Below, piece by piece: positions 1-57,077 of a stretch of DNA of 64,000 nucleotides (the first letter of the stretch is position 1; each line of letters starts with the position of its first letter). Below the pieces are notes generated by a model. The model was not told where the DNA came from. It worked only from the letters and a program-made list of their open reading frames with translations, and searched no databases. This DNA comes from Pachyseris speciosa (Eukaryota; Cnidaria; Anthozoa; Scleractinia; Pachyseridae): contig JAEMWC010000158.1 in assembly GCA_016490735.1 (NCBI GenBank), positions 163,501 to 227,500 of the forward strand. The letters are read 5' to 3'. Made by a program: the position numbers and the translations under genes.

Positions 1-363
1 CTTCCCAGACAAATAAATAACAATGAATGTGGGATAGTCAATCTTGACTCCAAAATTGGACCTGGTACACATTGGGTATGTTATCGAAATATGGACACAT
101 ACTGTGAATACTTCGATTCATTCGGTTTGATGATGCCAACAGAAGTTCAAATATATATGGCTACAAGCGGTAAACAACTTGAATACTCTGGTGATGAGAT
201 ACAAGAAAGGGATTCAGTCTTGTGTGGATATTGGTGTTTGTACTATCTTCTGGAGAGACAAAAAGGCAGATCAATTCTGGATACAAAACACAATTCCAAA
301 TTCAGTTCAACAGATACGAGTGTCAATCACAGATTCATCATAGACTACTTTAAAAATATCTAA
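1..363 (+). CDS. Adenovirus-type cysteine protease (Polinton), 3' part only
   Basis: The frame is open from the window edge to a TAA at 361-363, giving 120 visible residues, so the start is missing. Adenain-family proteases process capsid and core proteins during virion maturation. The visible catalytic elements are in family order: a His in GTHWVCY (codons about 23-29), an acidic residue in YFDSFG (about 38-43), and the nucleophile Cys in LCGYWCLYYL (about 74-83). An internal ATG at 91 would lose the catalytic His, so it is unlikely to be the true start. The next small gene follows in the same frame after a 12-base gap. Confidence 0.85.
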   Translation, partial: LPRQINNNECGIVNLDSKIGPGTHWVCYRNMDTYCEYFDSFGLMMPTEVQIYMATSGKQLEYSGDEIQERDSVLCGYWCLYYLLERQKGRSILDTKHNSKFSSTDTSVNHRFIIDYFKNI

Positions 364-375
364 CTTACTGATATA

Positions 376-534
376 ATGGTGAAATCATATTGTGTCAAAC
401 AGAAGAAAATCACTGAATGTGTACCAGGAAGTGAAAGATATCAAAAGACTAAAAATGGTCGAACTATGATGAAATGCACTTGTGCTGAATGTGGGATAAC
501 AAAGACTAAATTCATCAAGAAACGGGGAAACTGA
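376..534 (+). CDS. Small zinc-ribbon protein (DUF5679-like), N-terminal module of the PLA2-like gene
   Basis: A 52-residue frame with four cysteines: one in SYCVKQKK, one in ECVPGS, and a CTCAEC pair near the end, plus a basic C-terminus. Its layout resembles DUF5679-like small zinc ribbons found in adenovirus-like elements; this is from family memory. It stops at TGA 532-534, directly after the heptamer GGGAAAC. In the -1 frame the reading continues without a stop into the PLA2-like protein, so this may be the first domain of a longer protein made by frameshifting, or of a gene broken by one base. Its role is unknown; DNA or RNA binding inside a virion core is a guess. Confidence 0.6.
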   Translation: MVKSYCVKQKKITECVPGSERYQKTKNGRTMMKCTCAECGITKTKFIKKRGN

Positions 535-557
535 TTGGCCCGTCTGAAGGGGCGGGC
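525..557 (+). promoter_or_regulatory. Candidate -1 ribosomal frameshift site 1: G GGA AAC, spacer, stem-loop
   Basis: The zero-frame codons of the zinc-ribbon gene are CGG GGA AAC TGA, so G525-C531 fits the X XXY YYZ slippery pattern in exact register. A -1 slip moves reading into the frame of the PLA2-like gene, which is open from 531 onward. Six bases after the heptamer, GCCCG (538-542) can pair with CGGGC (553-557) around a 10-base loop, a typical stimulator distance. The stop codon directly after the heptamer is also typical. A plain one-base deletion in a formerly continuous gene is the alternative. Confidence 0.55.
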
Positions 558-578
558 ATACTAGATTCAGCCGCAGAT

Positions 579-1232
579 ATGGCACTAACAGGATTCTTGG
601 AACACGGTGTCCCTTATTTAGCGAAGAAAGGTGCCGAAATGGGGAGATATTATGCTTCAGAAGCAATGAGAAATCCAAAGCTGCAAAAGCAATTGATTGA
701 TAAAGGACTTTCCCTAGCAAAGCCAGTGATTACAAAGGTTGGTAAAGAAGGCTTAATGCAATTGAGCACTGCTATTAGACCCAAACGCTCTGACAAGAAA
801 AAAATGTATAAAACGGATATTAAAGGATTGGATTACGGCGGTGCTATTGACATTCACAAGATGATCGGTAAACTACCAAAACCAAAAAGTGGATGGACAC
901 CCGGACAATATAAATACATGGGGCCTTATAATCCCCTCGATAAACAGTTAGAGTATGATAAAAACACAGGTGAGGTCACAAAATGGTATGTCCAACCTTA
1001 CAACAAAGTGGATGAAATAGCAGCTTACCACGATATTTGTTATGATATGGGAAAAGATAAAGGTGATTGTGACAGAACAATGGTACAATCTCTAGACCAA
1101 ATATCATATGGTGAAATGCCAAAATGGGGACAAACAGCAAGATTCCTAATCAACAAAAAGGAGAAACTAGGTCTTGGTGTTTCAAAAAACGGAAAAAGCC
1201 GTCGAGTGAAGAAAACTGGCAAGAAAAATTAG
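579..1232 (+). CDS. Phospholipase-A2-like protein (Polinton minor virion protein)
   Basis: 217 residues from ATG 579; the same frame is open back to 531. A PLA2-like fold is indicated by a calcium-loop-like segment YMGPYNPLD (about 113-121) and the catalytic pair HD in AAYHDICYD (His141, Asp142), the combination used by parvovirus-type PLA2 domains for crossing membranes during entry. The N-terminal part is helical and basic, the tail strongly basic. The end overlaps the integrase frame by 109 bases from the integrase ATG, and A AAA AAC at 1184-1190 could shift ribosomes into it. Whether it is made alone, as a fusion to the upstream zinc ribbon, or as a fusion to the integrase cannot be settled here. 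Confidence 0.78.
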   Translation: MALTGFLEHGVPYLAKKGAEMGRYYASEAMRNPKLQKQLIDKGLSLAKPVITKVGKEGLMQLSTAIRPKRSDKKKMYKTDIKGLDYGGAIDIHKMIGKLPKPKSGWTPGQYKYMGPYNPLDKQLEYDKNTGEVTKWYVQPYNKVDEIAAYHDICYDMGKDKGDCDRTMVQSLDQISYGEMPKWGQTARFLINKKEKLGLGVSKNGKSRRVKKTGKKN

Positions 1233-2146
1233 CTGATGAATTACATGCACCCATAAAACGAAATTTTACTCGGCGGCGTGTGATTGTAAATAAAATTGAT
1301 GAAATATGGGCTGCTGATCTTGTTGAAATGCAACAGTTTAGTAAATGGAATAAAGGTTATAAATATCTTCTAATGGTTATTGATGTCTTCAGCAAATATG
1401 GTTGGATTGTCCCATTGAAGGATAAGAAAGGTGAAACAGTTACTAAAGCATTCCAAACCATCTTTAGAGATAGAAAACTGGAATATTTGTGGGTTGATAA
1501 AGGTAAAGAGTTCTATAACAAACACTTGAAGGACTTGCTAGAGAAACATAGTGTACAGATGTACTTTACTGAAAATGAAGAAAAGTCCTCAGTGGTTGAA
1601 AGATGGAATCGAACAATGAAGTCCAAAATGTGGAAGCAGTTCACTGTTCAAGGTAATACACAGTATTTAGACATGTTACCAAAACTAGTAAAACAGTATA
1701 ATAATACCAAACATTCAAGCATAAAGATGACACCCACAGAGGCTTCAAATAAAAAGAATGAAGGAACTGTTTACTTTAATCTATACGGTGATATGGAGCC
1801 ATTATCAGCTAAACCAAATTTTAAGGTTGGTGACAAGGTCCGGATATCTAAATATAAAAGAAAGACTTTTGATAAAGGCTATACACCAAATTGGACTGAG
1901 GAAGTATTTATAATTGATAAAATCCAATATACAAACCCAATCACTTACAAATTAAAGGATCTCAACGATGAAGAAATACAAGGAAGTTTTTATGAACAAG
2001 AATTATTAAAAGCCAGACAGGATGTTTTCCGTATTGATAAAGTCATTCGCAGAGATTACAAGAAGAAACAAGCTTTGGTGAAGTGGAAGGGATATAGTGA
2101 TGAATTTAACAGTTGGATACCATTTAGGGATTTAAAAGATATATGA
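1124..2146 (+). CDS. Polinton integrase (DDE, retroviral type) with C-terminal chromodomain
   Basis: 340 residues from ATG 1124. The rve core is clear: first Asp in AADLVEM (D65), second in WVDKGKEFY (D125) and Glu in SSVVERWNRT (E159), giving the DDE triad for strand transfer. An SH3-like stretch follows (about 225-300, VGDKVRISKYKR onward), then a chromodomain (about 302-340) with VIRRDYKKKQALVKWKGY and an aromatic W, probably steering insertion to modified histones. The first 36 codons overlap the PLA2 gene in another frame; residues before about 35 have low similarity value, so a fusion starting at the A AAA AAC site is possible. All catalytic residues are intact. Confidence 0.9.
   Translation: MGTNSKIPNQQKGETRSWCFKKRKKPSSEENWQEKLADELHAPIKRNFTRRRVIVNKIDEIWAADLVEMQQFSKWNKGYKYLLMVIDVFSKYGWIVPLKDKKGETVTKAFQTIFRDRKLEYLWVDKGKEFYNKHLKDLLEKHSVQMYFTENEEKSSVVERWNRTMKSKMWKQFTVQGNTQYLDMLPKLVKQYNNTKHSSIKMTPTEASNKKNEGTVYFNLYGDMEPLSAKPNFKVGDKVRISKYKRKTFDKGYTPNWTEEVFIIDKIQYTNPITYKLKDLNDEEIQGSFYEQELLKARQDVFRIDKVIRRDYKKKQALVKWKGYSDEFNSWIPFRDLKDI
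1184..1190 (+). promoter_or_regulatory. Candidate -1 frameshift site 2: A AAA AAC at the PLA2/integrase overlap
   Basis: The PLA2-frame codons here are TCA AAA AAC, so A1184-C1190 is the classic A AAA AAC heptamer in correct register. A -1 slip enters exactly the integrase frame, while the zero frame ends 40 bases later at TAG 1230-1232. I see no strong stem-loop just downstream, which weakens the case compared with site 1. The arrangement mirrors retroviral gag-pro-pol expression. Independent initiation at ATG 1124 is the alternative. Confidence 0.45.
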
Positions 2147-2302
2147 AATTCTTATAAAAGAATATTATCTAACCTATTAATAAGAACTGCAGTGTTTGCT
2201 GTTATTTGCTCATGGTAGCCAAGAATATTATTATTCCTGACTATATTTAAACACAGGTCGAAAATGAATTTAAAAAATAAATTATTATAATATAATATAC
2301 AA

Positions 2303-3152
2303 ATGCAAAAATATTCCTACGATAATAAAGAATTAGATGTATCAATTGATTGCTATCTTGATGATAAAAATGATGTTTGGTTCAGAGGAAGAGATATAGC
2401 CAAAATTCTTGACTATAAAAATCCACAAAGAGCGGTTAGAAATTATGTTGTATCTCATGATAAAATCTTGATAGACCTCAAAATAATGACGAATAGCAGA
2501 GGGACCGAAAGTGTCCATCAGGTCGGAAGCAGAAGGACCGAAAGTGTCCATCAGGTCGGAAGCAGAGGGACCGAAAGTGTCCATCAGGTCAAACAGTCTT
2601 ATAAATGTTTTTTTTATAAATGAATCAGGATTTTATTCCCTTATACTGTCTTCCAAAAAACAAGAAGCCATAAAATTCAAACATTGGGTTACATCAAAAG
2701 TATTACCATCAATCAGAAAACAGGGATATTACAAACAGTTCAATGATAGGAGTAATAACATGCTGATGATTGAAAGTGAAAATGATCTGCACTGCAAGAT
2801 TGTATCATTCATCAGAAAAAAATATGAAGATGCTTTAATGATTGTCGGTCTAGGTGAAAATCAAATAAACTCAAATATGAGAATCAGAAGTTATAACAAA
2901 GGATATATGGCTGGTCAGTGTGATTTAATGCTGTTGAATCCAACTAGAAAATACAATGCTCTATGTCTTGAATTCAAAAGTCCAACTGGTGTGTACCAAG
3001 TGTCGGATAAACAAAAAATTATGAAGCAGATGTATGAGAAAAATAAGTGCAGATACATCATTAGCAACTGTTTCGAAGATTTAATTTATGAAATAACTAA
3101 GCACATGGAAGAGAGTAAAAAATACTTATCAAGAAGGATAAAGCATATTTAA
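2303..3152 (+). pseudogene. BRO-N domain plus PD-(D/E)XK/VRR-NUC-like nuclease, split by a frame change
   Basis: The N-terminal half (ATG 2303) reads as a BRO-N DNA-binding domain (VWFRGRDIAKILDYKNPQRA). It runs into three 33-bp repeats and stops at TGA 2621-2623. The second half of the domain (FFINESGFYSLIL, then KFKHWVTSKVLPSIRKQ) lies in the +1 frame and continues to 3152. The C-terminal half has a nuclease-like signature, Asp in AGQCDLMLL and EFK in CLEFKSPTG. The repeats are multiples of three and do not shift the frame; the simplest single cause is one base too many in the T8 tract at 2607-2614. It could be mutation, assembly error or slippage. Such proteins are common in large DNA viruses; their function is poorly known. 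Confidence 0.65.
2497..2589 (+). repeat. Three tandem 33-bp repeats inside the BRO-N gene
   Basis: The unit, with core GGGACCGAAAGTGTCCATCA, is present three times with one or two differences. Encoded in the BRO frame it gives GTESVHQVGSR-type peptides. GACC near the start and GGTC near the end of the unit are complementary. The repeats are inserted in the middle of a domain that normally has no such linker, which suggests recent slippage expansion. Confidence 0.85.
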
Positions 3153-3892
3153 TTGCAAATTTTTCTGTGATATTGTCTATTATTGTTTTTCATCACTTTG
3201 TCACATATTGGACATTTGTACTCCTTGTTTTGCCATTTTTTCATAGCTTGTGAATGGTGCTTCTTTTTATCTTCATTAGGGACTCTATTTTTACGTTTAT
3301 TAGCTGATTTCAAATAATTATCAGGCATATCCTCTTTTTTGACATACTCAAATTTATAAAATTGACCATCTTTCTTTGAAATACCTGATTTACAATATCC
3401 AAATCCATCACAAACCATTTTAACAATACCGGCATTAATTTGAAGATGTTGTTGAACAGCATACATACTATTGAAGTATAATACTTCTTTGGTATTGACG
3501 TTAGTTGCTTTGACACATTTTTTATTTTTATGATTATCAGCAACAAATGAATAATCCCGACATTCTGCTGATTTCTTGCAATTCTGTTGTTGTGTTAAAA
3601 GTTGTAGATTACACAATCTGTTATCGTCTCTTATATTATTGATATGGTCAATGACTTTTCCTTCTGGAATAATACCGTTATGACATTCCCATACAAAACG
3701 ATGAACAAAATGTGATTGTTGTTTTCCACCATATTTCCTTATACAGCATGTCAAATAACCCTTAGGATGTTTGACCCCCTTCATTGGTACTTTTTTGATA
3801 ATATTTATAATATTTCCATCATTATCAGAGGCATATAAATCATAAACTGGATGAATATGGTAAACGCATTTCTTAATTTTAATCTTACTCAT
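3149..3892 (-). CDS. HNH endonuclease with C-terminal zinc finger, opposite strand
   Basis: 247 residues on the minus strand, overlapping the end of the BRO/nuclease gene by 4 bases. The middle holds an HNH_3-type core: HFVHRFVWECHNG, then VIDHINNIRDDNRLCNLQLL (about 92-124), with the His-Asn-His/Asn pattern that binds a metal at the active site. A NUMOD-like helical region follows, and the end has one C2H2-like finger (YKCPICDKVM with a later RQYHRKIC). This looks like a free-standing homing-type endonuclease. Its reversed orientation among plus-strand genes suggests it was captured as a module. The start ATG 3892 is preceded by a TATATTATA-like stretch. Confidence 0.8.
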   Translation of the reverse strand: MSKIKIKKCVYHIHPVYDLYASDNDGNIINIIKKVPMKGVKHPKGYLTCCIRKYGGKQQSHFVHRFVWECHNGIIPEGKVIDHINNIRDDNRLCNLQLLTQQQNCKKSAECRDYSFVADNHKNKKCVKATNVNTKEVLYFNSMYAVQQHLQINAGIVKMVCDGFGYCKSGISKKDGQFYKFEYVKKEDMPDNYLKSANKRKNRVPNEDKKKHHSQAMKKWQNKEYKCPICDKVMKNNNRQYHRKICN

Positions 3893-5402
3893 TATAATAT
3901 AGTTTTATATAATAATTGCCAACGAGTCACCCTCGCGAGGACGCGAGGGTGACGAGGCAGCAGCATTATAAAGCCGTGTGTGCGAGTTGATTTTGGTACA
4001 GGGAGACGAAATCTCGAATGAAAAAAGTTAGCATAAGGTAATGTAAGAGTGACATCATCGGTGATTGTTTTCGAGTTAGCCAATGGCATCGCGGTATTTT
4101 TTTTATCTAAACCAATCACATCAGGAGGATCATGATCGGTGACAAGATGACCACATTGACCTCATGGTGGCTTGTGCGGGCTTAGGCAGGAAAAAGTGAG
4201 TGGAAATATTGATATTATTCACTTGTGAGCGTTGTCTTCTTGCGTGTACTTTAATTTAGTGTTTTTGGGAGCCAGAGTGTCAGAAATCTAACACCTAGCA
4301 GGCTGAAAAATCGCCCAGCGAGGCAGTTATCGAAATCAGCTCGAAAACGGCTAGCTTGCCAAAACAGTCAATTGCCTCGACAAGATCGGCCAGCGTGCCA
4401 TTTAAGAAACAAAAAACAAAACCACTTGAACATAATCACTATAAACTCAATCAGAGGGCGTATAAAGCCTCTTCTTTTATCGAGCTAGTGTGCTCAAAAT
4501 TACAAATTTGACAGTCACGGCGAGCGTGACAAAACAGCAATCTTGCCAAAACAACAGTCAATTGTTTACAAAATCGGCCAGCGTGCTATAACTAAGGAAA
4601 AAAAAACACACTTGAATATATTCAAATATATTCACTATAAACATAATCAGAGGGAATATAAAGCCTCTTTCCAATCGAGTCACGAGTCACACGACGTGTC
4701 GCTGTTAGTTTGTGCTCATCCATTAGCGTTCACAAAAAACAGTCTAAGCTCTGTTTGCCAGAAAACCACTATCTGTCAAGCTTGAGGGAACTTAGCAAAT
4801 CAATTTGGATAGTCTTCTTATTCCAAAATTTCAGGGGGCTTGCAGCTGTAGCTTCGTTTGAAAATTATCCCATCAGAAGTGCTCAGGTCCAAAGTGGAAT
4901 TTGCATTTTTTTTGTTACAAGTTGTTTTTAAATACATTTAAAAAAACAAAGAAGACCATATTAGATGTGCATTTGTAATCTACGTTACAAGTTTTGTTCT
5001 TAAAAACATTTAAAACAAGAGCATGTGGGATTTGCGTTCTAAGAACATGTTAAAACACAAACATGTCACATTTGAATTCATGCTCATTTCTAACAACAAT
5101 GTTGATTTCATCTCTCTCAAGTAATGCAAGGGACTCATATTTCACCTCTAATCTACCCCACAAGTTTAATTCTTATAGACATTTTAAAAAACAAAGAAAA
5201 ACATGTGAGTTTTGCACTGCTTTTTTAAACAACGATTCAGTTTTAAAAAATCGACTGTACTCTGGTTACTTCTTAATTTTCTCTGCGCACACAACTGTGC
5301 CAGTGTTTACTCGTTGGCACTCTACCGGCAGGTATTCCTAGTTCTTTATAATATTTCATCCATGTTTAAGGTTTGAAGAAATAAAACCTATAGTTTAATA
5401 TA
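3893..5402. promoter_or_regulatory. 1.5 kb divergent non-coding region with tandem repeats (HNH/polymerase)
   Basis: No convincing gene is present. Two imperfect direct repeats, about 4350-4500 and 4535-4690, share CGGCCAGCGTGC, a CACTATAAAC segment and ATATAAAGCCTCTT / GTATAAAGCCTCTT, with a period of about 186 bp. Each has a TATA-like TATAAAG. A second series of looser repeats (about 4910-5210) carries AAAACATTTAAAA-type cores. The last 60 bases before the polymerase ATG include CTATAGTTTAATATA. The region separates two oppositely transcribed genes, so it probably holds both promoters and perhaps a replication or packaging signal. Confidence 0.55.
3926..3953. repeat. GC-rich perfect hairpin upstream of the HNH gene
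   Basis: GTCACCCTCGCG and CGCGAGGGTGAC are perfect inverted copies separated by four bases. It lies 34 bases upstream of the minus-strand HNH start, at the edge of the non-coding region. It may be a regulatory or replication structure; nothing decides which. Confidence 0.7.
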
Positions 5403-8400
5403 ATGGAAAATTTTATCTCACCCATTAGTATGAACAAGAGTGATCTTGAAAAACTAAGCAAAAATGAATTAATCAATTTGCTGTTGAAGCAGCAGCAGAA
5501 GAAACCAAAAATTGTTATAGTAGATGATTACATACCAATCCCTCCACCAAGAACTAAAAAACTGAAGCAACAGAAGAAGCCAAAAGTTATTGTGGTAGAT
5601 GATACCAAGCCTGTACAGAGACCAGTGCCAGCGCCTCGCAGGAGTGTAAAACAAATGGTTCAAGATTATGAAAACGACATAATTCTTCCGCCATTGGAAT
5701 TCAGGGACAGACCTGTGCCAGCACCCAGAACTAAAAAGGCGGTTCAAAAACCAACTCCTGCACCCAGGACTAAGATTATACAAACAGAGAAAGCTCTGAA
5801 GGGTTACACTGAGTCTTTCGAAATTGATATAAAAAATGACAAAGACCCGCTAGAGCAACTACTAAACACAAGAATGGCAATCGAAACACACATTAAAAAA
5901 TTGTTAAATGAAATGAAAGGACTGAAATTTGTTGAAACGCTGAAGGTAACATTCACAAAAACATCAGATGGACAAATAGAGTACAAAACAGCATATTTCA
6001 ACAGCACAGCTCAAACACTTGTGAATAATCTGGAAGTCACTGAATCACTGCAATTGTCAAAACAGCAAATCTTGAATAAGATAGCTCAATGGATATCTGA
6101 AGGTTCAGGTTGGACTGTTGATTCAGTTGATAGTCATTATATCAATGTTGTCAAATATCAACCAATGAGAGGTTCTTCATACATAAAACTGCCAGCAGAA
6201 TTACGAAATAGTGCCAAAGGTTTAATTAACTTGAAAAATGAGGATAATGAATGTTTCCGATGGTGTCACATCAGACACTTGAACCCACAAGAGAAATACC
6301 CACAGAGGATTAAAACATCAGACAAGCAATACATTGAAAAATTGGATTATACAGGGATTGAATTCCCAGTAACAACCAAACAGTATAACAAGATAGAAAA
6401 ACAGAATAAGATCAACATCAATGTATTCGGTTATGAGGATAAACAACCATATCCAATTTATGTTTCAAAAGAAAAATATGAAGACTGCTTGAATCTCCTT
6501 CTGATAACTAAAGATGAAAACAAGCATTATGTGTTAATCAAAGATTTTAACAAGTTGATGTACAATCAGACTAAACACAAGGAAAGAAAACATTTCTGCA
6601 TGCATTGTTTGCAGTGTTTCAGCTCCGAAAGAGTATTAACTGATCATAAAGACAATTGCATTCAAGTGAATGGAACACAAGCAATAAAAATGCCAGAAAA
6701 GGGTAAAAACATATTGAAATTCAATAATTTTCATAAACAACAACCTGTACCATTTGTGATTTATGCTGATTTTGAAGCCATAACTGAGAAAATACATGGT
6801 TGTCAACCTAATAATGGTAAATCATACACTGAGGCTTATCAGAAGCACACTGACTGTGGATATGGTTATAAGGTTGTCTGTTGTTATGACGATAAACATA
6901 GCAAACCTGCGACAGTTTACAGAGGTGAAAATGCTGTGTACAAATTCATGGAAGCTATGTTAGATGAAGTAAAATATTGTAAAAAGGTTATGAAAAAGGA
7001 ATTCAATAAACCATTGAAAATGACTGAGGATGATGAAAAAGAATTCCAAAAAGCTGAAATGTGTCACATCTGTGATAAGAAGTATACTGAAAAGGATATT
7101 AGAGTCCGAGATCATTGTCACATTACTGGTAAATACAGAGGTTCTGCTCACCAAGATTGTAATCTGAAACTCAGAGTGAACCCAGAAGAAATAAAAATTC
7201 CAGTTATATTCCACAATCTGAGAGGTTATGACAGCCATTTCATAATGCAAGACATTGGAGCCATTGTCAGGAAACACACATACAAAAACAAGAAAGGTGA
7301 AGACTGTCAAATGAATGTCAATGCTATCCCAAATAACATGGAGAAGTATATGGCCTTCATGCTTGGTAATCATCTTACCTTCATTGATAGTTTCCAATTC
7401 ATGAGCTCCAGTTTGGATAGACTAGTCAATAATCTACCAAAAGAAGCACTGAAATATACATCTCAAGAGTTCAAAGGTAATGATCTTGATTTAATGACAC
7501 AGAAGGGAGTATATCCTTATGACTACATGGACAGTTTTGATAAATTTAATGAGAAGCTACCACCAAAAGAAGATTTTTACAGTATATTGAGTAATGAGCA
7601 TATATCAGATGAAGACTATATGCGTGCTCAGAATGTATGGGACAAATTCTCTATGAAAAACATGGGCGATTATCATGACCTGTACCTTAAATCTGATATT
7701 CTTCTATTAGCTGATGTATTTGAAAACTTCAGGAAAACATGCTTAGAATACTATAAATTGGATCCATGTCACTACTTCACATCTCCAGGTCTATCTTGGG
7801 ATGCAATGCTTAAAATGACAAACATAAAATTAGAATTGATGACAGACATTGATATGTTTCAATTCATTGAAAAGGGCCTGCGTGGTGGTATATCATACAT
7901 AGCCAACAGATACGGTAAAGCAAATAATAAATACATGAAAGATTACAATGAGAAGGCGCCCTCTAAGTATATTATGTATCTAGATGCTAACAATCTTTAC
8001 GGTTGGGCTATGTCACAATACCTTCCAACAGGTGGATTCAAATGGTTGTCAGAAAAACAAATAAGCAATTTAGACCAGACAAACTATAAAGAAGATGGTA
8101 AAAAGGGATTGATACTTGAAGTTGACTTGGAATACCCCCAAGAGCTGCATGATTTGCATAATGACTATCCACTTGGACCTGAAAAGATCAAAGTAACTAA
8201 GGACATACTGTCAGATTACTGCAAAAACATAGCTGATAAATTCAATATTTCAACAGGCTTAGTTCATAAGCTAATCCCAACATTAAGCAACAAAGAGAAG
8301 TATGTGCTCCATTATAGGAACCTCCAATTATACACCAATCTCGGTTTGAAAATAACTAAAATCCATAGAGTTCTTGAGTTCAATCAATCCCCCTGGCTTA

Positions 8401-9245
8401 GACAGTATATTGATTACAACACTCAGAAAAGAACTAATGCTAAAAATGCATTTGAAAAAGACTTCTTCAAACTTATGAATAATTCAGTATTTGGTAAAAC
8501 AATGGAAAACCTAAGAAAGAGAGTAGATGTAAGACTAGTAACAGATGAGAAGAAACTTACAAAATTAGCAAGCAAACCCACTTATGTAAGCAGTAAAATA
8601 TTCAATGAAAATCTAGTAGCTGTGCATAAGATTAAAGAAACACTTACTTTAAACAGGCCGGCATATGTAGGAATGTGTATTCTAGATCTTAGCAAGACGT
8701 TGATGTATGATTTTCACTATAATTACATTAAACAAAAGTACGGTGATAAAGCAAAGCTACTATTCACAGATACAGACAGCTTAACATATGAAATTGAAGC
8801 TGAAGATGTATACTCAGACTTCTGGAATAATAAAGATAAATTTGATAACAGTGACTACTCTGAAAGCTCGCCATATTATAACAAGACAAATAAAAAAGTG
8901 ATTGGAAAAATGAAAGATGAAGCTGCTGGTATTCCCATAACTGAATTCATTGGTTTGAGATCAAAAATGTATAGCTATATGAAAGATAATCAAAAAGGAG
9001 GAAAAACAGCCAAAGGAATCAAAAAGATTGTAATCAAAAAGAACATCAAACATGAAAATTATAAAGAAACATTATTCGATAATAAACAGTTGCATCACAA
9101 AATGAAAACAATCAGAAGTCAAAATCATCAATTGGGTAGTTATGAAATCAACAAGGTATCACTCAGCTGTTTCGATGACAAACGATATATATTAAAAGAC
9201 GGAATCAACAGTTTTGCATATGGACATTATCTCACCAAAAACTAA
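5403..9245 (+). CDS. Protein-primed family B DNA polymerase (pPolB) of the Polinton
   Basis: 1280 residues, intact. The N-terminus is unusual: four proline motifs (PIPPPR, PVPAPR twice, PTPAPR, residues about 45-122) among basic stretches, resembling SH3 ligands. A C2H2-type finger (HFCMHCLQCF, about 396-420) precedes the 3'-5' exonuclease: Exo I in VIYADFEA (about 451), a CHICDKKY...HCHITGKYRG treble-clef zinc module (about 555-585), Exo II in FHNLRGYDSHF (about 602) and Exo III in LKSDILLLADVF (about 761). Polymerase motifs follow: A in YLDANNLYGWAM (about 859), B in KLMNNSVFGKTM (about 1022) and C in LFTDTDSL (about 1121). All catalytic aspartates are present, so it could be active and copy the element from a terminal protein. 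The TATA-like CTATAGTTTAATATA touches its ATG. Confidence 0.95.
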   Translation: MENFISPISMNKSDLEKLSKNELINLLLKQQQKKPKIVIVDDYIPIPPPRTKKLKQQKKPKVIVVDDTKPVQRPVPAPRRSVKQMVQDYENDIILPPLEFRDRPVPAPRTKKAVQKPTPAPRTKIIQTEKALKGYTESFEIDIKNDKDPLEQLLNTRMAIETHIKKLLNEMKGLKFVETLKVTFTKTSDGQIEYKTAYFNSTAQTLVNNLEVTESLQLSKQQILNKIAQWISEGSGWTVDSVDSHYINVVKYQPMRGSSYIKLPAELRNSAKGLINLKNEDNECFRWCHIRHLNPQEKYPQRIKTSDKQYIEKLDYTGIEFPVTTKQYNKIEKQNKININVFGYEDKQPYPIYVSKEKYEDCLNLLLITKDENKHYVLIKDFNKLMYNQTKHKERKHFCMHCLQCFSSERVLTDHKDNCIQVNGTQAIKMPEKGKNILKFNNFHKQQPVPFVIYADFEAITEKIHGCQPNNGKSYTEAYQKHTDCGYGYKVVCCYDDKHSKPATVYRGENAVYKFMEAMLDEVKYCKKVMKKEFNKPLKMTEDDEKEFQKAEMCHICDKKYTEKDIRVRDHCHITGKYRGSAHQDCNLKLRVNPEEIKIPVIFHNLRGYDSHFIMQDIGAIVRKHTYKNKKGEDCQMNVNAIPNNMEKYMAFMLGNHLTFIDSFQFMSSSLDRLVNNLPKEALKYTSQEFKGNDLDLMTQKGVYPYDYMDSFDKFNEKLPPKEDFYSILSNEHISDEDYMRAQNVWDKFSMKNMGDYHDLYLKSDILLLADVFENFRKTCLEYYKLDPCHYFTSPGLSWDAMLKMTNIKLELMTDIDMFQFIEKGLRGGISYIANRYGKANNKYMKDYNEKAPSKYIMYLDANNLYGWAMSQYLPTGGFKWLSEKQISNLDQTNYKEDGKKGLILEVDLEYPQELHDLHNDYPLGPEKIKVTKDILSDYCKNIADKFNISTGLVHKLIPTLSNKEKYVLHYRNLQLYTNLGLKITKIHRVLEFNQSPWLRQYIDYNTQKRTNAKNAFEKDFFKLMNNSVFGKTMENLRKRVDVRLVTDEKKLTKLASKPTYVSSKIFNENLVAVHKIKETLTLNRPAYVGMCILDLSKTLMYDFHYNYIKQKYGDKAKLLFTDTDSLTYEIEAEDVYSDFWNNKDKFDNSDYSESSPYYNKTNKKVIGKMKDEAAGIPITEFIGLRSKMYSYMKDNQKGGKTAKGIKKIVIKKNIKHENYKETLFDNKQLHHKMKTIRSQNHQLGSYEINKVSLSCFDDKRYILKDGINSFAYGHYLTKN

Positions 9246-9478
9246 ACCACAGAACAGAACCAGTATTTCCAAGAATTTCACTCATGGTTTTATTCAGAGA
9301 ATTCTATCAAATTAATAAACTATAGATATCATCAAATTATTCAACTATAGATTTCCAAAAATAAAATAACTATAGTTTTTCCAAAATCCGAGATCATTTT
9401 GCTAAAACACCCCCCTAAACCAGTATGTGATTCCATTTGATTAATTTTTGATCTGGTACCCCCAAACACTATACTACT
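9246..9478 (+). repeat. Right terminal region of the Polinton (expected terminal inverted repeat)
   Basis: About 230 non-coding bases after the polymerase stop. It contains three ACTATAG copies (around 9320, 9344 and 9371), a run of six C, and ends in CACTATACTACT. The matching left terminus is outside the window, so the inverted repeat cannot be checked. The first six host bases, GTGGAA, should be the target-site duplication. Confidence 0.7.
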
Positions 9479-9515
9479 GTGGAAGCGGTTGTTAAGAGAA
9501 ACAAATTTTTTGAAA

Positions 9516-10004
9516 ATGCAAGAAGGACTCGGCTATTTCGACAAAGGAGCTCCTGAGATTGCTGTTCGTAGTCTGTTTGATAAGTACGATGCAAACAGGA
9601 ATGGGAAACTCGAGGGACACGAAATGCAGACTTTGCTGGAAGAAGATCTTGGCCTCAGCCCGGAACAGTCATGGGTGTATTTTCTGCTGTTAGACAAAAA
9701 TGGAGATCATGACATATCCTTTGAAGAATTCAACGATTGGCTTCGTAGCGGCGAACACTTCGAGGTTTTGAACAACAAGGCAAAGTTTCACAGCCTTTCG
9801 AAAGCTTTAAACTATTTCAAGAGATTTGATACTGATGATAGTGACACGCTTGACCGGGCACAGTTCGAACGGATGATGATTTTTTTCGGTTACGGCGCGA
9901 TCAACATGGATAAGGCCTTCGCGAAGATGGATAAAGACGACAATGGAGCTGTGTCATTCTGGGAGTTTATGCTGTGGCTCAAGTGGGTCCCAGTTGTTAA
10001 CTAG
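9516..10004 (+). CDS. Four-EF-hand calcium-binding protein, copy A1
   Basis: 162 residues, single exon, starting at ATG 9516. Four loops are visible: 1 at residues 25-36 (DANRNGKLEGHE), 2 at 60-71 (DKNGDHDISFEE), 3 at 105-116 (DTDDSDTLDRAQ) and 4 at 139-150 (a DKDDNGAVSFWE loop). Loop 3 has Gln where the bidentate Glu is usual, so it may bind weakly. The C-terminus ends in WEFMLWLKWVPVVN. It is a small soluble calmodulin-like or sarcoplasmic-type sensor or buffer; I do not recognise a named orthologue. It differs from A2 by an extra Glu (LLEEDLG against LLEDLG) and a few substitutions. The Polinton lies 37 bp upstream and has displaced the original 5' region, so expression may be altered or lost. 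Confidence 0.85.
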   Translation: MQEGLGYFDKGAPEIAVRSLFDKYDANRNGKLEGHEMQTLLEEDLGLSPEQSWVYFLLLDKNGDHDISFEEFNDWLRSGEHFEVLNNKAKFHSLSKALNYFKRFDTDDSDTLDRAQFERMMIFFGYGAINMDKAFAKMDKDDNGAVSFWEFMLWLKWVPVVN

Positions 10005-14270: not shown

Positions 14271-14381
14271 TTAAACTCTTGAAGGAAGCGAAAAAGTCAA
14301 CAAAACAATATCAGGACATATAAAGAAAGAAGTTTCAGTTAAAAGAAGACGGTTGAAAGACATAAAAAATGCAGGCTGGCC

Positions 14382-14954
14382 ATGCATACGTATTTCGCCC
14401 GCGATGCACCAGAAGTCGCTGTGCACAGGCTGTTGGAAAAATACGACGTCGAAAAAAATGGAAAACTTGACGAAGCAGAACTAAAGGAATCGCTAGAAGG
14501 TGATTTGGGTTTGAGCCCCGAACAGTCTTACCGTTTGTCGGTTGATGTTAGACCAAGCCGACGAAAATTGTGTCACTTAGGACGAATTTTTCAACTGGCT
14601 ACGAAGCGGAGAACGCTACGAAGTGGAGAACGCTTTGAAAACATCAACAACAAAGGCAAGTTTGAGAAACTGTCCCTTGCGTTGGAGATATTTAAGACAT
14701 TTGACCAGGACGATAGTGATACTTTGGACATACAGCAGTTTGAACAGTTGATTTCGTCGCTTGGATATCGCAATGTGAATTCCAAGGATCTTTTTGAGGA
14801 GTTGAACAGCCATCACAATGGAAAGCTGTCTTTTTGGGAGTTCATGAAATGGCTGAATTGGGTTCCCATTGAAGCATATGACAAAAAACCAAGCCTGAAT
14901 TCATTCGACTCGTATGATTTATATTTATGCACCACGAGAACGTATTTACTCTAA
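14382..14954 (+). pseudogene. EF-hand protein copy B1, damaged
   Basis: The ancestral start (ATG 14369, matching 25876 in copy 2) is out of frame because of a 4-bp duplication (GCAT) at about 14382. Translation could restart at the new ATG 14382 with eight fewer codons. Inside, one inserted base (about 14530) scrambles EF loop 2, and a 17-bp duplication (about 14610-14627) restores the frame. EF loops 1, 3 and 4 are still readable (DVEKNGKLDEAE, DQDDSDTLDIQQ, NSHHNGKLSFWE), and the end is extended because the copy-2 stop is lost. Net 190 residues against 167 in B2. It may be a pseudogene or a diverging truncated protein. Confidence 0.75.
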
Positions 14955-22967: not shown

Positions 22968-23040
22968 ATGCCAGAAGTATCAAGATCAGAAGAATTATTT
23001 TCAGTGGAAGCGGTTGTTAAACGAAACAAATTTTTTGAAA

Positions 23041-23526
23041 ATGCAAGCAGGTCTCAGCTATTTCGACAAAGGAGCTCCTGAGATTGCTGTTCGCAGTCTG
23101 TTTGATAAGTACGATGCAAACAGGAATGGGAAACTCGAGGGACACGAAATGCAGACTTTGCTGGAAGATCTTGGCCTCAGCCCGGAACAGTCATGGGTGT
23201 ATTTTCTGCTGTTAGACAAAAATGGAGATCATGACATATCCTTTGAAGAATTCAACGATTGGCTTCTTAGCGGCGAACACTTCGAGGTTTTGAACAACGA
23301 GGCAAAGTTTCACAGCCTTTCGAAAGCTTTAAACTATTTCAAGAGATTTGACACTGATGATAGTGACACGCTTGACCGGGCACAGTTCGAACGGATGATG
23401 AATTTTTTCGGTTACGGCGCGATCAACATGGACAAGGCCTTCGCGAAGGTGGATAAAGACAACAATGGAGCTGTGTCATTCTGGGAGTTCATGCTGTGGC
23501 TCAAGTGGGTCCCAGTTGTTAACTAG
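23041..23526 (+). CDS. Four-EF-hand calcium-binding protein, copy A2
   Basis: 161 residues from ATG 23041. The four loops match those of A1: DANRNGKLEGHE, DKNGDHDISFEE, DTDDSDTLDRAQ (Gln at position 12) and DKDNNGAVSFWE. Few residues differ from A1, mostly conservative (AG for EG at 3-4, LSG for RSG, NEA for NKA). Predicted small cytosolic calcium buffer or sensor; family not named. A TATA box lies 100 bp upstream, so this copy keeps its promoter, in contrast with A1. Confidence 0.87.
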   Translation: MQAGLSYFDKGAPEIAVRSLFDKYDANRNGKLEGHEMQTLLEDLGLSPEQSWVYFLLLDKNGDHDISFEEFNDWLLSGEHFEVLNNEAKFHSLSKALNYFKRFDTDDSDTLDRAQFERMMNFFGYGAINMDKAFAKVDKDNNGAVSFWEFMLWLKWVPVVN

Positions 23527-24552
23527 CTGATGACAAACGGATGAAGATTAAGGTGATAAAGACGGTGTAAATGAGATAAGCCTCCTTAATCATTTTCCAG
23601 TCATGATAAGATTGTAGAAGTTTGAGCATTCAAGTGAAAGCTACTAGCCAGTATTTTCCTGTGGTTTTGCATTCGGTTTCCATTTATGCCAAGCAGAAGC
23701 TAACAAAACTTTTTAACATACGTACGCCTTACACCTTACTTTTTACATAAAGCGGCTCATGAAGTTTTAGTGAACTTTGAAAGGGAAACTGAGGGCGTGA
23801 TTAATTCTTTGATTGCACTCTCGTGATAAGACGGCCATGTTGGTGCCAAAACAATAGAAAATGTAGCTCAAGGTTTGCATTATAATAGAGTCAAATTCCC
23901 AAAAGACTTTTTCGCTATTGTTCTTTCCACCTACATGCACCGTTACGTCAGGTGCTGTCAAGATGTACCCTCTGAGAGGGGAGAACTTTTTGAACGCTTC
24001 TTTTGTGTACTGATTCACTCTGAGAAGCATTCAGTATCCATGCAACAAAAGTTGGGAATCGCGAATACTACACCTCCAGCACGCGCTACCAATACTGAAT
24101 AGCTTCCATCTGATTCATGAATCTCCCTCACAAAGAATTGTATATAATATAGTTCTCTATCGGTATAACATTTTTATTAGAATATATATATGCAAAGAGA
24201 ACTTGCGCAAGGTTTTTCACTCAATCGTTTTTCGTACACTTAACGACGCATGAAATTCCAGTAAACACGACTTGTATATTTTAACTAGAGATGTTCTTTA
24301 TTCTAATACACATCCTTATTTCGATGGACTCTTATTCTTTGGTAAATAGAACTTGCACTGACACATTTAAATCAAAGTTATGAAAATAGGAATGATTATC
24401 TGTACCTGCCTCTACGGTTTCTTGTTGTTGTTACTGAACCTGCAAAATGATCTTATAAGTGGTCGGAAAATCGAACTGCTCTGCAAACTGTGTTTCGATT
24501 TTGGGGTCAAGTGAAACCGGCTTGACGTTATACTGTAAAAACCCTTTGTATA
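23527..24552. other. Intergenic sequence shared with copy 1
   Basis: Near-identical to 10005-11030, with small indels (for example a GAGAA insertion near 23980). No gene is supported. Confidence 0.6.
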
Positions 24553-24768
24553 GGCCCTGGCAAACGAGTACACATTGTTGCAAACACATTGTTGCTCATG
24601 ATGTTTCTTGGGTGAGCAAACGAGCGTGACACAACGCAAATGTTGTGTTTCCATACTGCGCAAACTGGGAAACATTTGTTGAGAACGCAAATTTTGTGTC
24701 GGCAACAAATGTTGCGCGCTCGGGCAAACATGGAAACATTTGTATCCGCAACAACGTTTGCCAGGGTC
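24553..24768. mobile_element. MITE, GGCCCTGGCAAACG termini (copy 2 of the shared insertion)
   Basis: Same element and position as 11031-11246 in copy 1, with a few substitutions. Shared presence dates it before the duplication. Confidence 0.8.
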
Positions 24769-24771
24769 TTA

Positions 24772-25088
24772 TGCACATGTCATCGGCTTCCCCGTGGGGT
24801 CGACCCCCGGGCTAACTAGGGGGATGGTAAAATCTTGAGTAATTTCCCTGGGGGTCGGGAAATCTCTCAAGACAAAGTCCCCTGGGTTAGATGTCTCTCA
24901 GCTGAAAATTCCCGTGACATCCTTTTCACACTTGTGAATTCCCCCACCCCCTAATCTTTGATCGTAGAACAATGTCAACATTTCCCCTACCCTCGGGCAA
25001 AGAATCCTGTCCATCTCTTTGTATTCCCCCACATATCTCCCTGGTAGGCCCGGGGGTCGACCCCACGGGGAAGCTGATGACATGTGGA
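24772..25088. mobile_element. MITE, TGCACATGTCATCGGCTTCC termini (copy 2 only)
   Basis: Inverted ends of about 34 bp (CACATGTCATCGGCTTCCCC on the left, its complement with one mismatch on the right). TTA flanks it at 24769-24771 and 25089-25091; copy 1 shows the empty site GGGTCTTATCGCG near 11243-11255. The 3-bp TTA target suggests a PIF/Harbinger-like family. A second member is at 50261-50533 with a TAA target. Confidence 0.8.
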
Positions 25089-25875
25089 TTATCGCGCGAT
25101 CGATGCCGAATTATTTTCATTTTTAGTTTTTCTCTGGAAAGAAGAATGAGAAATTTCAAAGAATTACGAAAATCTTTATGTATATACACCCAAGGAAAAC
25201 TTTGGAGTCTTTAATCGTCTTTTTTTTTTGTTCCACTAAAATCTTAAAAAATTCTGGCATCAAGAGTATACGTGACGCCGGAAAGCCGCAACAAAACTAA
25301 CAGGTTGGAATCAGTTACGTAAAAGGATGCCTCACCGCTTGGTTGAGAGTGATCTTTCCTTTGCATCATTAAATTTCCTGAATTTATGACGCTATCAGCC
25401 AATATCTCGTATTAAAAAAAGACAACGAATGTTCTCAGTTAATACTTCCCAGAATTTACTGCCGTAACAGAATTTTTTTGACAGAAAAAAAATGAACCCC
25501 AAACTCTCGGTTGATTTTGATAAATTCCCCAATTCTCTAGTCTATAACTTGGATGTAAGAAAGTTTAGAAGTTCAGCCTGATTCCGGGGCTAGACGAGAA
25601 AAATTTTCCGTTCGAGAGGTAATAATATTATTATGTCATGGTTCATGATAGCTCACGAAAGAAATCGTGCAAGCGAACATGAAACAGAAGTCATGTGAGG
25701 TGGCTGGTCACACGTGACTTGATTCTGACGTTAGAAATCGTGATTATAAAAGCGACTTGCAAATCGCATATTAACCTTTAAACTCTTGAAGGAAGCGAAA
25801 ACGTCAACAAAACTATATCAGGACATATAAAGAAAGAAGTTTTAGTTGAAAGAAGACGGTTGAAAGTCGTCAAAA
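25089..25875. other. 5' flank of EF-hand B2, shared with copy 1
   Basis: Matches segments of 11247-12300 and 12705-12810 and then 14275-14368, allowing for the insertions in copy 1. CATATTAACCTTTAAACTCT (about 25767-25786) is the uninterrupted target of the TTAA element. No separate gene is seen. Confidence 0.5.
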
Positions 25876-26379
25876 ATGCAGGCCGGCCATACGTATTTCG
25901 CCCGCGACGCACCAGAAGTCGCTGTTCACAGTCTGTTCGAAAAATACGACGTCGAAAAAAATGGAAAACTCGACGAAGCAGAACTAAAAGAATTGCTAGA
26001 AGGTGATTTGGGTTTGAGCCCCGAACAGTCTTGCATTTATCGGTTGATGTTAGACCAAGCCGGCGAACATTGTGTCACTTACGAGGAATTTTCCAACTGG
26101 CTACGAAGTGGAGAAGGCTTTGAAAACATCAACAACAAAGCCAAGTTTGAGAAACTGTGCCTTGCGTTGGAGATATTTAAGACATTTGATCAGGACGATA
26201 GTGATACTTTGGACATACAGCAGTTTGAAAAGTTGATTTCATTGCTTGGATATCGCAATGTTAAATCTAAGGATCTTTTTGAGGAGTTGAACAGCCATCA
26301 CAATGGAAAGCTGTCTTTTTGGGAGTTTATGAAATGGCTGAATTGGGTTCCCATTGAAGCGTATGACAAAAAAACATGA
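25876..26379 (+). CDS. Four-EF-hand-type protein, copy B2
   Basis: 167 residues from ATG 25876, single exon. Loops: 1 DVEKNGKLDEAE (canonical), 2 DQAGEHCVTYEE (degenerate, Cys in the loop), 3 DQDDSDTLDIQQ (Gln at position 12), 4 NSHHNGKLSFWE (Asn at position 1, two His). It has roughly one good calcium site and three altered ones, so it may be a weaker or structural relative of EF-hand A. The shared N-terminal GxxYFxxxAPEVAV and C-terminal SFWEFMKWLNWVP blocks show A and B arose by an older duplication. The linked BTB gene follows. Confidence 0.85.
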   Translation: MQAGHTYFARDAPEVAVHSLFEKYDVEKNGKLDEAELKELLEGDLGLSPEQSCIYRLMLDQAGEHCVTYEEFSNWLRSGEGFENINNKAKFEKLCLALEIFKTFDQDDSDTLDIQQFEKLISLLGYRNVKSKDLFEELNSHHNGKLSFWEFMKWLNWVPIEAYDKKT

Positions 26380-27120
26380 CTGAACTCATTCGACTCGTAT
26401 GATTTATATTTATGCACCACGAGAACGTATTAACTCTAAGCCAAAGTTCATTTTTAATTGTGAAGGATAATTCGTTTCCTGTTCTTGGAAATATTATATG
26501 AATTAAGGGAGAAAAATCCTTTATTTACTACAGATAGAAGTGAAAAGGAAATTTATTTTATTTTATTTGAAAACCTCCCACTAAGTCATGTACGTAACAT
26601 TTAAATAATTTTAAACGACTCTTGACGAAACGATTCAAATGTAAAACTAATCCGCCGTTGTTTCCTGAAGGTAAAATTCAAGGTAAAAAAATTCTTAATA
26701 TTGTACAATATTATTTGAGACATTTAAAGTAAAAACTATTTTATTGAGCGTATCTTATTGCGATTTTGAGGTCATCTCGTGTTGTTATGGAAATGCGCCC
26801 ACAAAAATAAACATACTTTTTTTTTATCACGTTCCATGTCCACTGAAGTTAACCAATGCAGCTTCAATCCCGCAATTTTTTCCGTCCCACATCTTACCGA
26901 CTATAACTTTTTCTTTCACTACTACAAGTGACGTCTGTCGAATTTAAAATTCATGAATACCTTCGTTATTCAACAGAGTGGTCACACAATTTACAGGGGG
27001 AGTACATTGCACACAAGATCCTTATCAAATATGCTTGCAGATCGTTAAGCCGTCTGCAAATTATTCTAGTTCCTTCTTACGCCATTTTGCTCCGTATTGT
27101 TGATACTACTGAGTTCCCAA
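26380..27120. other. Intergenic, EF-hand B2 to BTB2
   Basis: AT-rich; the first part matches 14955-15410 in copy 1 and the last 110 bp match the sequence before BTB1, which defines where copy 1 took its nested insertion. No gene is supported. Confidence 0.5.
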
Positions 27121-28858: not shown

Positions 28859-31800
28859 TCATTCTGTCTTCTGAAGGTGAGATCGTGTAGTCCTTTTGAC
28901 AAAGCGCACCAAACAAAGAAATAATACAACAGCTAACGAACACAACAAAGTTTTCGAAGTCTCGTACAACAACTTTGGTGAGAACACACTCCAAACGAAC
29001 AGGTGATACCGCTGACCAAATACCAATGTACAGTAGACACACAGGACCAAAGACTGACAGAGGACGATGACGTAACACACCTCGCGGAGAGAATTCTGTA
29101 ACCTGGGGAGATAAATTGATTGGCAAGGACACTCGAGTCGAGACTGATGTTTGTGCGACTCTCCAGGTTTTCAGATCTTCCTCAGGTGGGTGGGGGTGGG
29201 TGGAAGAATGGAGAGGGATGGGGTGGGAAATAGCTTGTCTATCACCCCCCAGAAAAGCTTAACGTTCAAGTTAGCGGCGACAGTCGGGTCACTAAATGTT
29301 CTAGTGGCAAGTCGCGTGGAAAAGCTGAGGCGCGCGGCTCACTTGCAAGCCAAGGACACTAGGAATTTTCAATTTAAACTCTGTCTTATCCCCTCCCACT
29401 TGCAGCTGAAGACGGGTATTTACACTTCACAAAACTAAGAGAGTACGCACAAACAACACTGAACTTTTATGTTTGTTTTTCTTTGACTCTAAAATGCCTT
29501 TAAGCTTTTCAATATTTTAAATTTTAAAAGGCTAATAATTTCTTTGATCAACCATTTGCTGTTTTCGAATGTTTACATATTTCAATCATTTGTGGAATTT
29601 TATTGTGGGTATGCGATAAAATTGAGTTGCGTAATGACAGACAGTAGTGCGGCAAAATTTAAACTAGGCTAAATACAGGAGCAACGGAGCACCGCATTCC
29701 TCTTACCTTGTAACATCACGGGCGTCTCGGATGATGGACAAGACTCCAGCAATCAGCCACAAACAGGGCCCACAGTAGGTGGCTACATACGTGAGAGGGA
29801 CCATTATACCAGGGACAAAATCCTCCATCCCCACATAGCCCGCAGAGATGTCGACAGAAGCCAGGCTGTTGGAGTTCCCCAATGAAAAGTACATCGCATG
29901 GCCCATCCACAAAGAACTGACAATGATGACCCATGACGTCCCTTGGCTGTAAAGGATACAAAAGCACAACAGATGTAAGCAAAAGAGTTGAGGTCAGTTC
30001 AGTGCTGTGAAACTAACTCGTACCCACTTTTCGCGCTACGCGGGCTAATCCAAATCTGGCCAATCACAAAAGCCATAAACAGCAAAATGAACCAATCAGA
30101 ATTCGAAGTCAATTGAGAACCCGGATTACCTTCGACACTCAATTGGACAAGTGCAGGTAACGCATATATAGCGGCGGAAGGGGCGGGGGAGGGAACATCA
30201 AATGTCACGGAGGGTACTAATAACAGGCATGTTGGCCACCTTGTGACAATATTTAGGGGGGAAATTAGGGATTTTTTCCCTGAAAAGTAGGGATTTTTAG
30301 GGATAAATGGTTAAAAAGTAGGGCTATTTTAGGGCTTTTATTTAGGAGAGAATGAAGAATTCAGCTTACCTTTCTATCACTGTTTTCCAAACAGAAAGAT
30401 ACTTACTCAAATGAAATACTGGTTTATAGCATTAACGACTTAGACAGGAGAGGGATTGTGCACATCACGTCTTGAAAATGCTTAGCATGGATCCAACATC
30501 ATTGAAAGTTGAAGCCTCTGGCAGCACAGTGAGCTAAAATATAAAATTTATTTGTTCAATGTAAGTACATGAGTTCATACAAGGTACAATGGTACTAACT
30601 CTCAGGACATCTGCCCTGGTTTATACAGGGTGTCCGTATCCCATTGCAATGCATGACTCAAGGAGCGTCAACTATATATTAAAACAACAATATACAACAA
30701 CAACAACAAGAATACAAGTTTGAATTTCTGAAGCACATAAACATTGCCAAACAAAACTAGCTACCTCGAAAAGTACTAGAAATGTAACGCAAGGAGATGA
30801 CTGTGTTATCATAACTAATCAGTGACTGTGATTAAGACTCCAGAGATTAAACGACACACCAAGGCACAATCAGCTACTGAATAGTCAACAGAAACAATAA
30901 GCCTAATGCTTTGCGTTATCAATCATTTTCATGCGTTTGCTGTCAAGGGATACTCTCCTTTTCTGAAGAAGTATGGTGATAGAACAACAGCAAGTGAAAA
31001 ACTAGTCAACCGTGTACATTCTCTGTGGGAGTTAGAAACATGTAACATTTTGTAAATGGTTTGAACCCAGGAGTCATATCATAACTAAGTGAAGCACGAT
31101 CGTCTGGGTTAGTGTAGTCCTGAGAAGGACTGTTTGTGGTGACATTGACTGACGTTTCGACTACCTGAGCGGAAGTCATCATCAGAGTCAAGTGATTGGG
31201 GTAACGTCAGGAGATGGTATAAGTACTCTGGTCGTTGATGTGATTGGTCAACGAAGTCGTGATGTTATTGGTTGTCTGTCAGTTAAGCCGTGATGTTATT
31301 GGCTGTGAAGACTGTAAAACCACGTTTTACAGTCTTCACAGCCAATAACATCACGGCTTAACTGACAGACAACCAATAACATCACGACTTCGTTGACCAA
31401 TCACATCAACGACCAGAGTACTTATACCATCTCCTGACGTTACCCCAATCACTTGACTCTGATGATGACTTCCGCTCAGGTAGTCGAAACGTCAGTCAAT
31501 GTCACCACAAACAGTCCTTCTCAGGACTACACTAACCCGGACGATCGTGCTTCACTTAGTTATGATGTAACATTTTCTTCATCTAAAATCTCAACTTTCT
31601 AACTCTTAGAGAGGATGCCATGGTTAAGTGCTACAAATCTGTAACTTGAACATTTACATATGTTCAAGTAAGATGAGCACAACTTTGCTCCCTCAAATTC
31701 TATCATTGGGAAAATTACATTAAATACCAGGATAAAACAAAGTTACTCACCTGGGATTGATAGAAGTTGAAGGATCCTCCCATGCTTCATAATTCCACAC

Positions 31801-55914: not shown

Positions 55915-55918
55915 TAAC

Positions 55919-55967
<49 letters not shown>

Positions 55968-56919: not shown

Positions 56920-57077
56920 ATGACGAAGTAAAACCAATTGTTAAAGGCGATAATGCCAATGAAAAATTAGCGAATTTCGTCATAATGACGTACCTAAATT
57001 ACTGTTATTAATGTGGTAATGTCAATCGTAATTGAATTATATTGGTTTAGTTGAAGTATCTCTTTTACTTTACTTCA

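Follow-up and report, generated by a model that had tools for sequence, protein, structure and literature searches.

Two probable tandem frameshift sites in a Polinton-type module

The sequence analysed here, called the window, is a 64,000-nucleotide stretch of the genome of the stony coral Pachyseris speciosa (G000:C158:163501-227500), and its positions ~1-9300 are part of a Polinton-like element. In this Polinton (Maverick) element, a zinc ribbon, a PLA2-like protein and an integrase are encoded in successive -1 frames, and it is very probable that they are joined by two programmed -1 frameshift sites. The basis for this reading is given by the frames, the slippery heptamers and the predicted downstream stems, all of them conserved, and by the fact that most copies of the module have no usable AUG. 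The initial annotation of the window had proposed the same two signals, and the proposal is borne out by the conserved phase, heptamer and stem in the related copies and by the tails of database proteins.

The module is on the plus strand. The zinc-ribbon open reading frame (ORF; 376..534), set as frame 0 of the module, starts at the ATG at 376 and ends with the codons CGG (523-525), GGA (526-528), AAC (529-531) and TGA (532-534); its match to the Pfam family DUF5679 (22.9 bits) is below the cut-off of 27. Directly before TGA, the heptamer G GGA AAC of site 1 (525..531) is in phase with the zinc-ribbon frame. The -1 frame is open, stop to stop, from 510 to 1232 and encodes the PLA2-like protein (Pfam PF08398, E 1.5e-8), with its first ATG at 579 and the stop TAG at 1230-1232. 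The heptamer A AAA AAC of site 2 (1184..1190) is in phase with the PLA2 codons TCA (1182-1184), AAA (1185-1187) and AAC (1188-1190). The integrase frame (1115..2146) is at -1 to PLA2 and includes an rve core and a chromodomain (PF00665 and PF00385, both above the Pfam cut-off); if reached via frameshift, it would be used from 1184 onward. This frame has one ATG 5′ of the heptamer (1124..1126), and the first ATG 3′ of it is at 1328..1330, within the rve core. The ribbon end with its in-register heptamer, the -1 frame open into the PLA2-like gene and the second in-register heptamer with the integrase frame at -1 had all been described in the initial annotation and are seen in the sequence and its frames. 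The same holds for a stem-loop starting six bases after site 1, for which folding gives 8 base pairs (bp; 538-545/550-557).

That two independent one-base deletions should fall at correctly phased heptamers had also been called a coincidence. For the window copy alone this is a weak case, because canonical in-phase heptamers arise at 1.3% of the PLA2 codons among copies (178/13,970). By arithmetic from this codon rate, the chance of an in-phase heptamer in the window is ~0.1 at site 1, where the overlap is short, and ~0.4 in the long overlap of site 2. Since a chance heptamer in each overlap is not rare, the test is conservation among copies, and there the conservation exceeds chance.

Conservation of the two sites among copies

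Related copies were drawn from the same 984 Mb genome as the window and were chosen because they resemble either the window or one PLA2 protein. They comprise 83 distinct module copies (98 sequences before duplicate removal), to which 36 short sequences spanning the PLA2-integrase junction were added, for a site-2 total of 119; at least ~22 further loci were left out. Aligned over both sites, as the initial annotation had suggested, the copies conserve the heptamers, the offsets and the stems, with the downstream frame at -1 in 72/82 copies at site 1 and 106/119 at site 2.

The site-1 sample is formed by the module copies with a readable zinc ribbon, 82 of the 83. In every one of the 72 copies with PLA2 at -1 to the zinc ribbon, a canonical heptamer in phase precedes the end of the ribbon frame: G GGA AAC in 61, G GGA AAA in eight and T TTA AAC in three (L044, L079, and L083). 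In the T TTA AAC copies, three adjacent bases and the residues in both frames are changed and the slippery pattern is retained; in L044, this heptamer is at the end of a ribbon frame ~70 codons longer. Among the site-1 evidence, these three copies matter most. As for the ten remaining copies, seven were scored as +1 and three as same frame. Five of the +1 copies keep the heptamer, their frame being apparently lost further downstream, and the other two (L007 and L058) are without it. The same-frame copies are L016 and L084, in which the ribbon itself is broken, and L097, which is a fusion. None of the three true site-1 fusions examined (L097, L137, and L141) has a heptamer.

The first ATG of the PLA2 frame is 54 nucleotides (nt) 3′ of site 1 in most copies, and 63, 69, 75, 87, 114, 141, 228 or 378 nt in the others. 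The peptide from the heptamer to this ATG is largely conserved (GK[LR] followed by two variable residues and, in most copies, PS[EK]GAG). Because the peptide is kept while the position of the ATG shifts, this stretch appears to be translated and entered from the ribbon frame.

At site 2, the 13 copies outside the -1 class are five with the integrase in the same frame as PLA2 (L021, L042, L080, L101, and L104), five at +1 (L005, L007, L016, L036, and L100) and three unassignable (L090, L105, and L122). An in-phase canonical heptamer is present in 102 of the 106 copies at -1, namely A AAA AAC in 101 and A AAA AAA in one. In the 73 of the 83 module copies with A AAA AAC and the integrase at -1, the integrase frame was followed upstream and downstream. 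In 65 of these 73, a stop is found 24-42 nt before the heptamer, with no ATG between; only the other eight, the window included, retain the upstream ATG, 60 nt 5′ of the heptamer. The first downstream ATG is at 144 nt in 68 copies and at 120 nt in two, within the rve core, and three copies meet a stop first. Since the frame is closed upstream without an ATG and the next ATG is in the rve core, a complete integrase started from an AUG would be impossible in these 65 copies, and for them internal AUG initiation can be taken as excluded.

The frame is held at sites 1 and 2, whereas it drifts at the protease junction upstream. At this junction, a glycine-rich membrane-protein-like ORF runs into an adenain-like protease over poly-A (L001:133-1488, into window positions 1-363). 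The poly-A run has 8-21 A in 29/30 copies, and the protease is in the same frame in 11/30, at -1 in 11/30 and at +1 in 8/30, a spread that differs from the held -1 offset at site 2 (Fisher p 1.4e-9). Transcriptional slippage or drift is possible at the protease junction.

Predicted stems downstream of the heptamers

The predicted stem-loop of site 1 (538..557) begins 6 nt 3′ of the heptamer, with a fold of -14 kcal/mol. Its 20 nt are identical in 69/79 copies, four others have a single loop change only, and six are otherwise different. In 51 copies the ribbon stop is right after the heptamer, so that the stem is read in the PLA2 frame only. The stem codons in this set are CCG in 50/51, GGG in 51/51, GCG in 49/51 and GGC in 50/51 copies, while the same residues elsewhere in PLA2 use these codons in 4%, 10%, 9%, and 12% of cases, respectively.

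Site 2 has a predicted stem that was absent from the initial annotation. Its 5′ arm (1198..1210) starts 7 nt 3′ of the heptamer and pairs over 13 bp with the 3′ arm (1265..1277), which is on integrase codons including ACT CGG CGG; the stem-loop alone folds at -19.4 kcal/mol (z-score -2.65). Each of the ten pairs 1198-1207/1268-1277 is formed in 101-106 of the 108 anchored copies, the other 11 of the 119 being unanchored, some by lack of the heptamer and some, as is believed, by their orientation. Codons in the 5′ arm are CCG in 72/73 (2.7% elsewhere in the integrase) and TCG in 71/73 copies (0.9%). In the 3′ arm, ACT is found in 72/73 (38% elsewhere) and CGG for the second arginine in 72/73 (10% elsewhere). 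The sole frequent change in this stem is CGG to CGA at the first arginine (20/73), by which a U-G pair becomes U-A; counted over the anchored copies, this one common G to A change, with the pair to U kept, is found in 30/108.

When one copy was folded over only 50-80 nt behind site 2, no structure was seen, because such short stretches stop before the 3′ arm; in longer stretches the stem appeared. The synonymous conservation of the first 45 nt behind site 2 counts as weak evidence, as this part is coding in both frames. More weight was given to the rare codons in the 3′ arm, since this arm is beyond the PLA2 stop, where a single frame is coding. Both predicted stems seem to be conserved at the RNA level, on rare synonymous codons that hardly vary, and both spacers are within the 5-9 nt expected before a stimulatory structure. 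Each site presents a canonical X XXY YYZ heptamer, a spacer of 6-7 nt and a stable predicted stem.

Tails of database proteins

Database relatives were examined as the best 120 of 515 for the zinc ribbon and the best 120 of 840 for PLA2. A heptamer-compatible triplet, at the end or inside, is present in 109 of the 120 zinc-ribbon proteins (104 xGN, 2 xKN, and 3 xLN); one has an incompatible xGN, and ten have none or are fused. Among the 120 PLA2 proteins, 114 could be anchored and 112 are unfused to an integrase. Heptamer-compatible tails, in which the residue before KN or LN can supply the required base, are found in 108 of these 112 (82 xKN and 26 xLN). The LN tails, together with the FK of the integrases P0051 and P0074, are consistent with T TTA AAY in the same position. 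In addition, several database integrases and PLA2 proteins start, as judged by eye, with residues that resemble a wrong-frame reading of the preceding gene.

The two lists include 29 anchored fused PLA2-integrase proteins, of which 13 have KN somewhere before the integrase; by eye, KN is at the junction in seven of these and further on in six. The comparison of junction KN in 7/29 fused proteins with compatible tails in 108/112 unfused ones gave a Fisher p of 6e-16, for sequences that are related to each other.

In-frame fusions and alternative explanations

Several observations weigh against the frameshift reading. The copy counts are not independent events, as the copies are related. Four of the -1 copies are without a canonical site-2 heptamer (L025, L060, L129, and L132), of which L132 is decayed, with three stops within PLA2. 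Conversely, the canonical pattern persists in 5/5 fused copies, so the presence of the site-2 heptamer alone is no marker of the offset state. No two-sided compensatory pair changes were found in the stems among copies, and the pairing therefore rests on conservation and codon choice. Longer stretches at site 1 fold with z-scores of only -0.7 to -1.1, and 100 nt at site 2 with -1.6. Moreover, PLA2 and integrase are often fused in frame, both in the database (the 29 anchored proteins above) and in a different sublineage of the window's genome, where 31 of the best 88 matches to the fused protein P0048 have an open frame of at least 500 amino acids. Since fused sublineages exist, a low integrase-to-PLA2 ratio is not essential in all of them.

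Fused database relatives (such as P0007-P0009, P0011-P0020, and P0033) have identical domains in the identical order as the window module; unlike the window, they carry PLA2 and integrase in one ORF, and no slip at site 2 is needed. P0015 and other fused relatives keep the site-1 offset, as read from their N-termini, and in the three fused copies of the window type that include site 1 (L021, L042, and L080), one frameshift still precedes the integrase. Site 1 was read in eight of the 31 fused loci: five are at -1 with G GGA AAC (L135, L138, L139, L140, and L142), one is at +1 with the same heptamer, and the other two (L137 and L141) are fully fused. Because the fused loci differ in their site-1 state, the lineages appear to shift, at each of the two junctions, from one state to the other, recoding or fusion. 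The initial annotation had held that intact relatives with one continuous frame would speak against frameshifting; such relatives do exist, and to this extent the objection applies, but the copies at -1 keep their heptamers. Fusion is an alternative state and no refutation of the frameshift reading, since the site-1 fusions lose the heptamer and the -1 copies keep one. The idea that virion protein and integrase are made in a fixed ratio did not hold as a universal feature, given the in-frame fused relatives.

Three other explanations were weighed. The three frames could be separate overlapping genes, with PLA2 and integrase translated from their own AUG by leaky scanning or reinitiation, and the window does offer an ATG at 579 in the PLA2 frame and at 1124 in the integrase frame. 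However, the latter is confined to the eight copies mentioned above; the 65 others have the upstream stop and no integrase ATG before the one, if any, in the rve core. The first PLA2 ATG is 54-378 nt beyond site 1, yet the peptide that precedes it is largely kept, and the conservation of the heptamers is left unexplained, so that separate initiation is very unlikely. The integrase frame could also be obtained without ribosomal slippage, by transcriptional slippage on an A-run, which would be consistent with the six A in site 2 and with the poly-A run and varying frames of the protease junction. The heptamers of site 1 (G GGA AAC, G GGA AAA, and T TTA AAC) are not long homopolymers, though, and predicted stems follow both heptamers at 6-7 nt; we give this explanation, too, a very low probability.

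Decay or assembly error, by which the offsets would be chance one-base deletions in dead copies, is extremely improbable. Some copies are indeed broken at the junctions, such as L007, L016, L036, and L132. Against this, most copies have the identical -1 offset at both sites, which contrasts, in the comparison made for site 2, with the frame spread of the protease junction, and different heptamer types occur at the identical site-1 spot. The ratio of nonsynonymous to synonymous differences (pN/pS) of the integrase in relation to the window is 0.08-0.39, with a median of 0.134, in the 15 gap-free comparable copies with at least 75% identity.

Proposed expression of the module

Under the two-frameshift reading, most ribosomes would terminate shortly after the zinc ribbon. 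Some would slip at site 1 and produce a zinc ribbon-PLA2 protein, and some of these would slip again at site 2, with a zinc ribbon-PLA2-integrase protein as the product. We infer both the slippage itself and its rate. PLA2 domains of the PF08398 family occur in parvovirus capsids, and for this reason the middle PLA2 domain is probably membrane-active in the particle; the longest product may deliver the integrase together with a membrane-active virion protein. More tentatively, the region may be a Gag-Pro-Pol-like recoding cassette of an animal DNA virus or transposon lineage, in which two tandem -1 shifts meter three products, the integrase enters particles as the tail of a membrane-active virion protein, slippage at the upstream poly-A junction yields the protease as well, and either junction can change from recoding to in-frame fusion or back in different lineages. 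Taken as a whole, this wider proposal is possible rather than probable.

Genomic context of the module

The gene order of the element in the window is the end of the protease, the zinc ribbon, the PLA2-like frame, the integrase with chromodomain, a split BRO-N gene, an HNH endonuclease on the opposite strand and a long ORF (5394-9245). The C-terminal part of the adenain-like protease ORF, which has its start 5′ of the window, is at 1..363 on the plus strand; in the window copy this ORF is fused to a glycine/lysine-rich protein. The tentative assignment to adenain is based on matches below cut-off or weak to Peptidase_C5 (PF00770; 15.7 bits, cut-off 21.3, E 0.012) and to the adenoviral-type protease 4piq of PDB (E 0.012). 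The BRO-N gene (2291-3152) is divided between two frames that overlap, with a 33-nt tandem repeat and eight consecutive T close by, and Bro-N is matched by both halves. The long ORF is a candidate polymerase by eye only, from motifs that resemble the B family; searches of Pfam, PHROGs and PDB sequences returned zero polymerase matches for it.

At 4.4-4.9 kb before the start of the window, L134 encodes a packaging ATPase of the A32/FtsK type (PF04665, Pox_A32; 27.0 bits, cut-off 22.8). Adjoining it, L134 has a short collagen-like (GxxGPxGP) ORF on the minus strand (631-939). Candidate capsid ORFs are located nearer to the window. One of them, L134:3782-4999, is a candidate double jelly-roll capsid protein, picked by position and look only; it is without Pfam match and has one weak PHROG match of unknown function.

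Among the protein matches listed, the only named relatives belong to two stony corals, Oculina patagonica (P0085) and Stylophora pistillata (P0180). Related DNA was not found in viral_contigs with integrase, PLA2 and zinc-ribbon queries, nor in genome_contigs with integrase and PLA2 queries. The host DNA that flanks the element includes EF-hand-like genes, recognized by eye and duplicated (9441-10004, 14343-14954, and 23004-26399). The window also has a nearly perfect inverted repeat of 248 nt, separated by a 3-nt spacer (31073-31571), and a unit of ~1.76 kb in three near-identical tandem copies (55428-60440).

Comparison with known recoding systems

The beta- and deltaretroviruses mouse mammary tumor virus (MMTV), Mason-Pfizer monkey virus (MPMV) and human T-cell leukemia virus type 1 (HTLV-1) produce Gag-Pro-Pol via tandem -1 frameshifts. 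The window module is similar to these in its two successive -1 shifts, the same heptamer types, the downstream structure and the integrase in last position. On the other hand, the window holds a DNA transposon or virus, with a zinc ribbon first, a PLA2-like protein in the middle and no reverse transcriptase, and its protease is in an upstream ORF, outside the polyprotein. Zero Pfam matches to Gag or reverse transcriptase were obtained for the zinc-ribbon, PLA2 and integrase frames. The resemblance to Gag-Pro-Pol is limited to the expression strategy and does not extend to a retroviral gene set. Bacterial insertion sequence (IS) elements that rely on a -1 slip at A AAA AAx to produce their transposase share with the module a DDE recombinase obtained only after a -1 slip; unlike the module, they are bacterial and have two ORFs and one shift.

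Among animal DNA viruses, hypothetical -1 frameshifts with slippery sites predicted by KnotInFrame have been proposed for the Penton and Hexon-Adenain genes of adintoviruses in a preprint (PMC11071296). The group is related, but in the parts of the preprint covered the proposal concerns genes other than zinc ribbon, PLA2 and integrase, and these parts hold no statement of an integrase made by frameshift. In the literature searched on Polintons, Mavericks, adintoviruses and DNA-transposon recoding, no published frameshifting at these zinc-ribbon, PLA2 and integrase genes was found.

If the three frames form one product, ordinary gene callers divide it into three. The predicted physical link between PLA2 and integrase would account for the entry of the integrase into the Polinton particle. 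A kinship of Polintons with many DNA viruses of eukaryotes has long been proposed, and an integrase produced via two ribosomal slips would tie the expression logic of Polintons to that of retroviruses.

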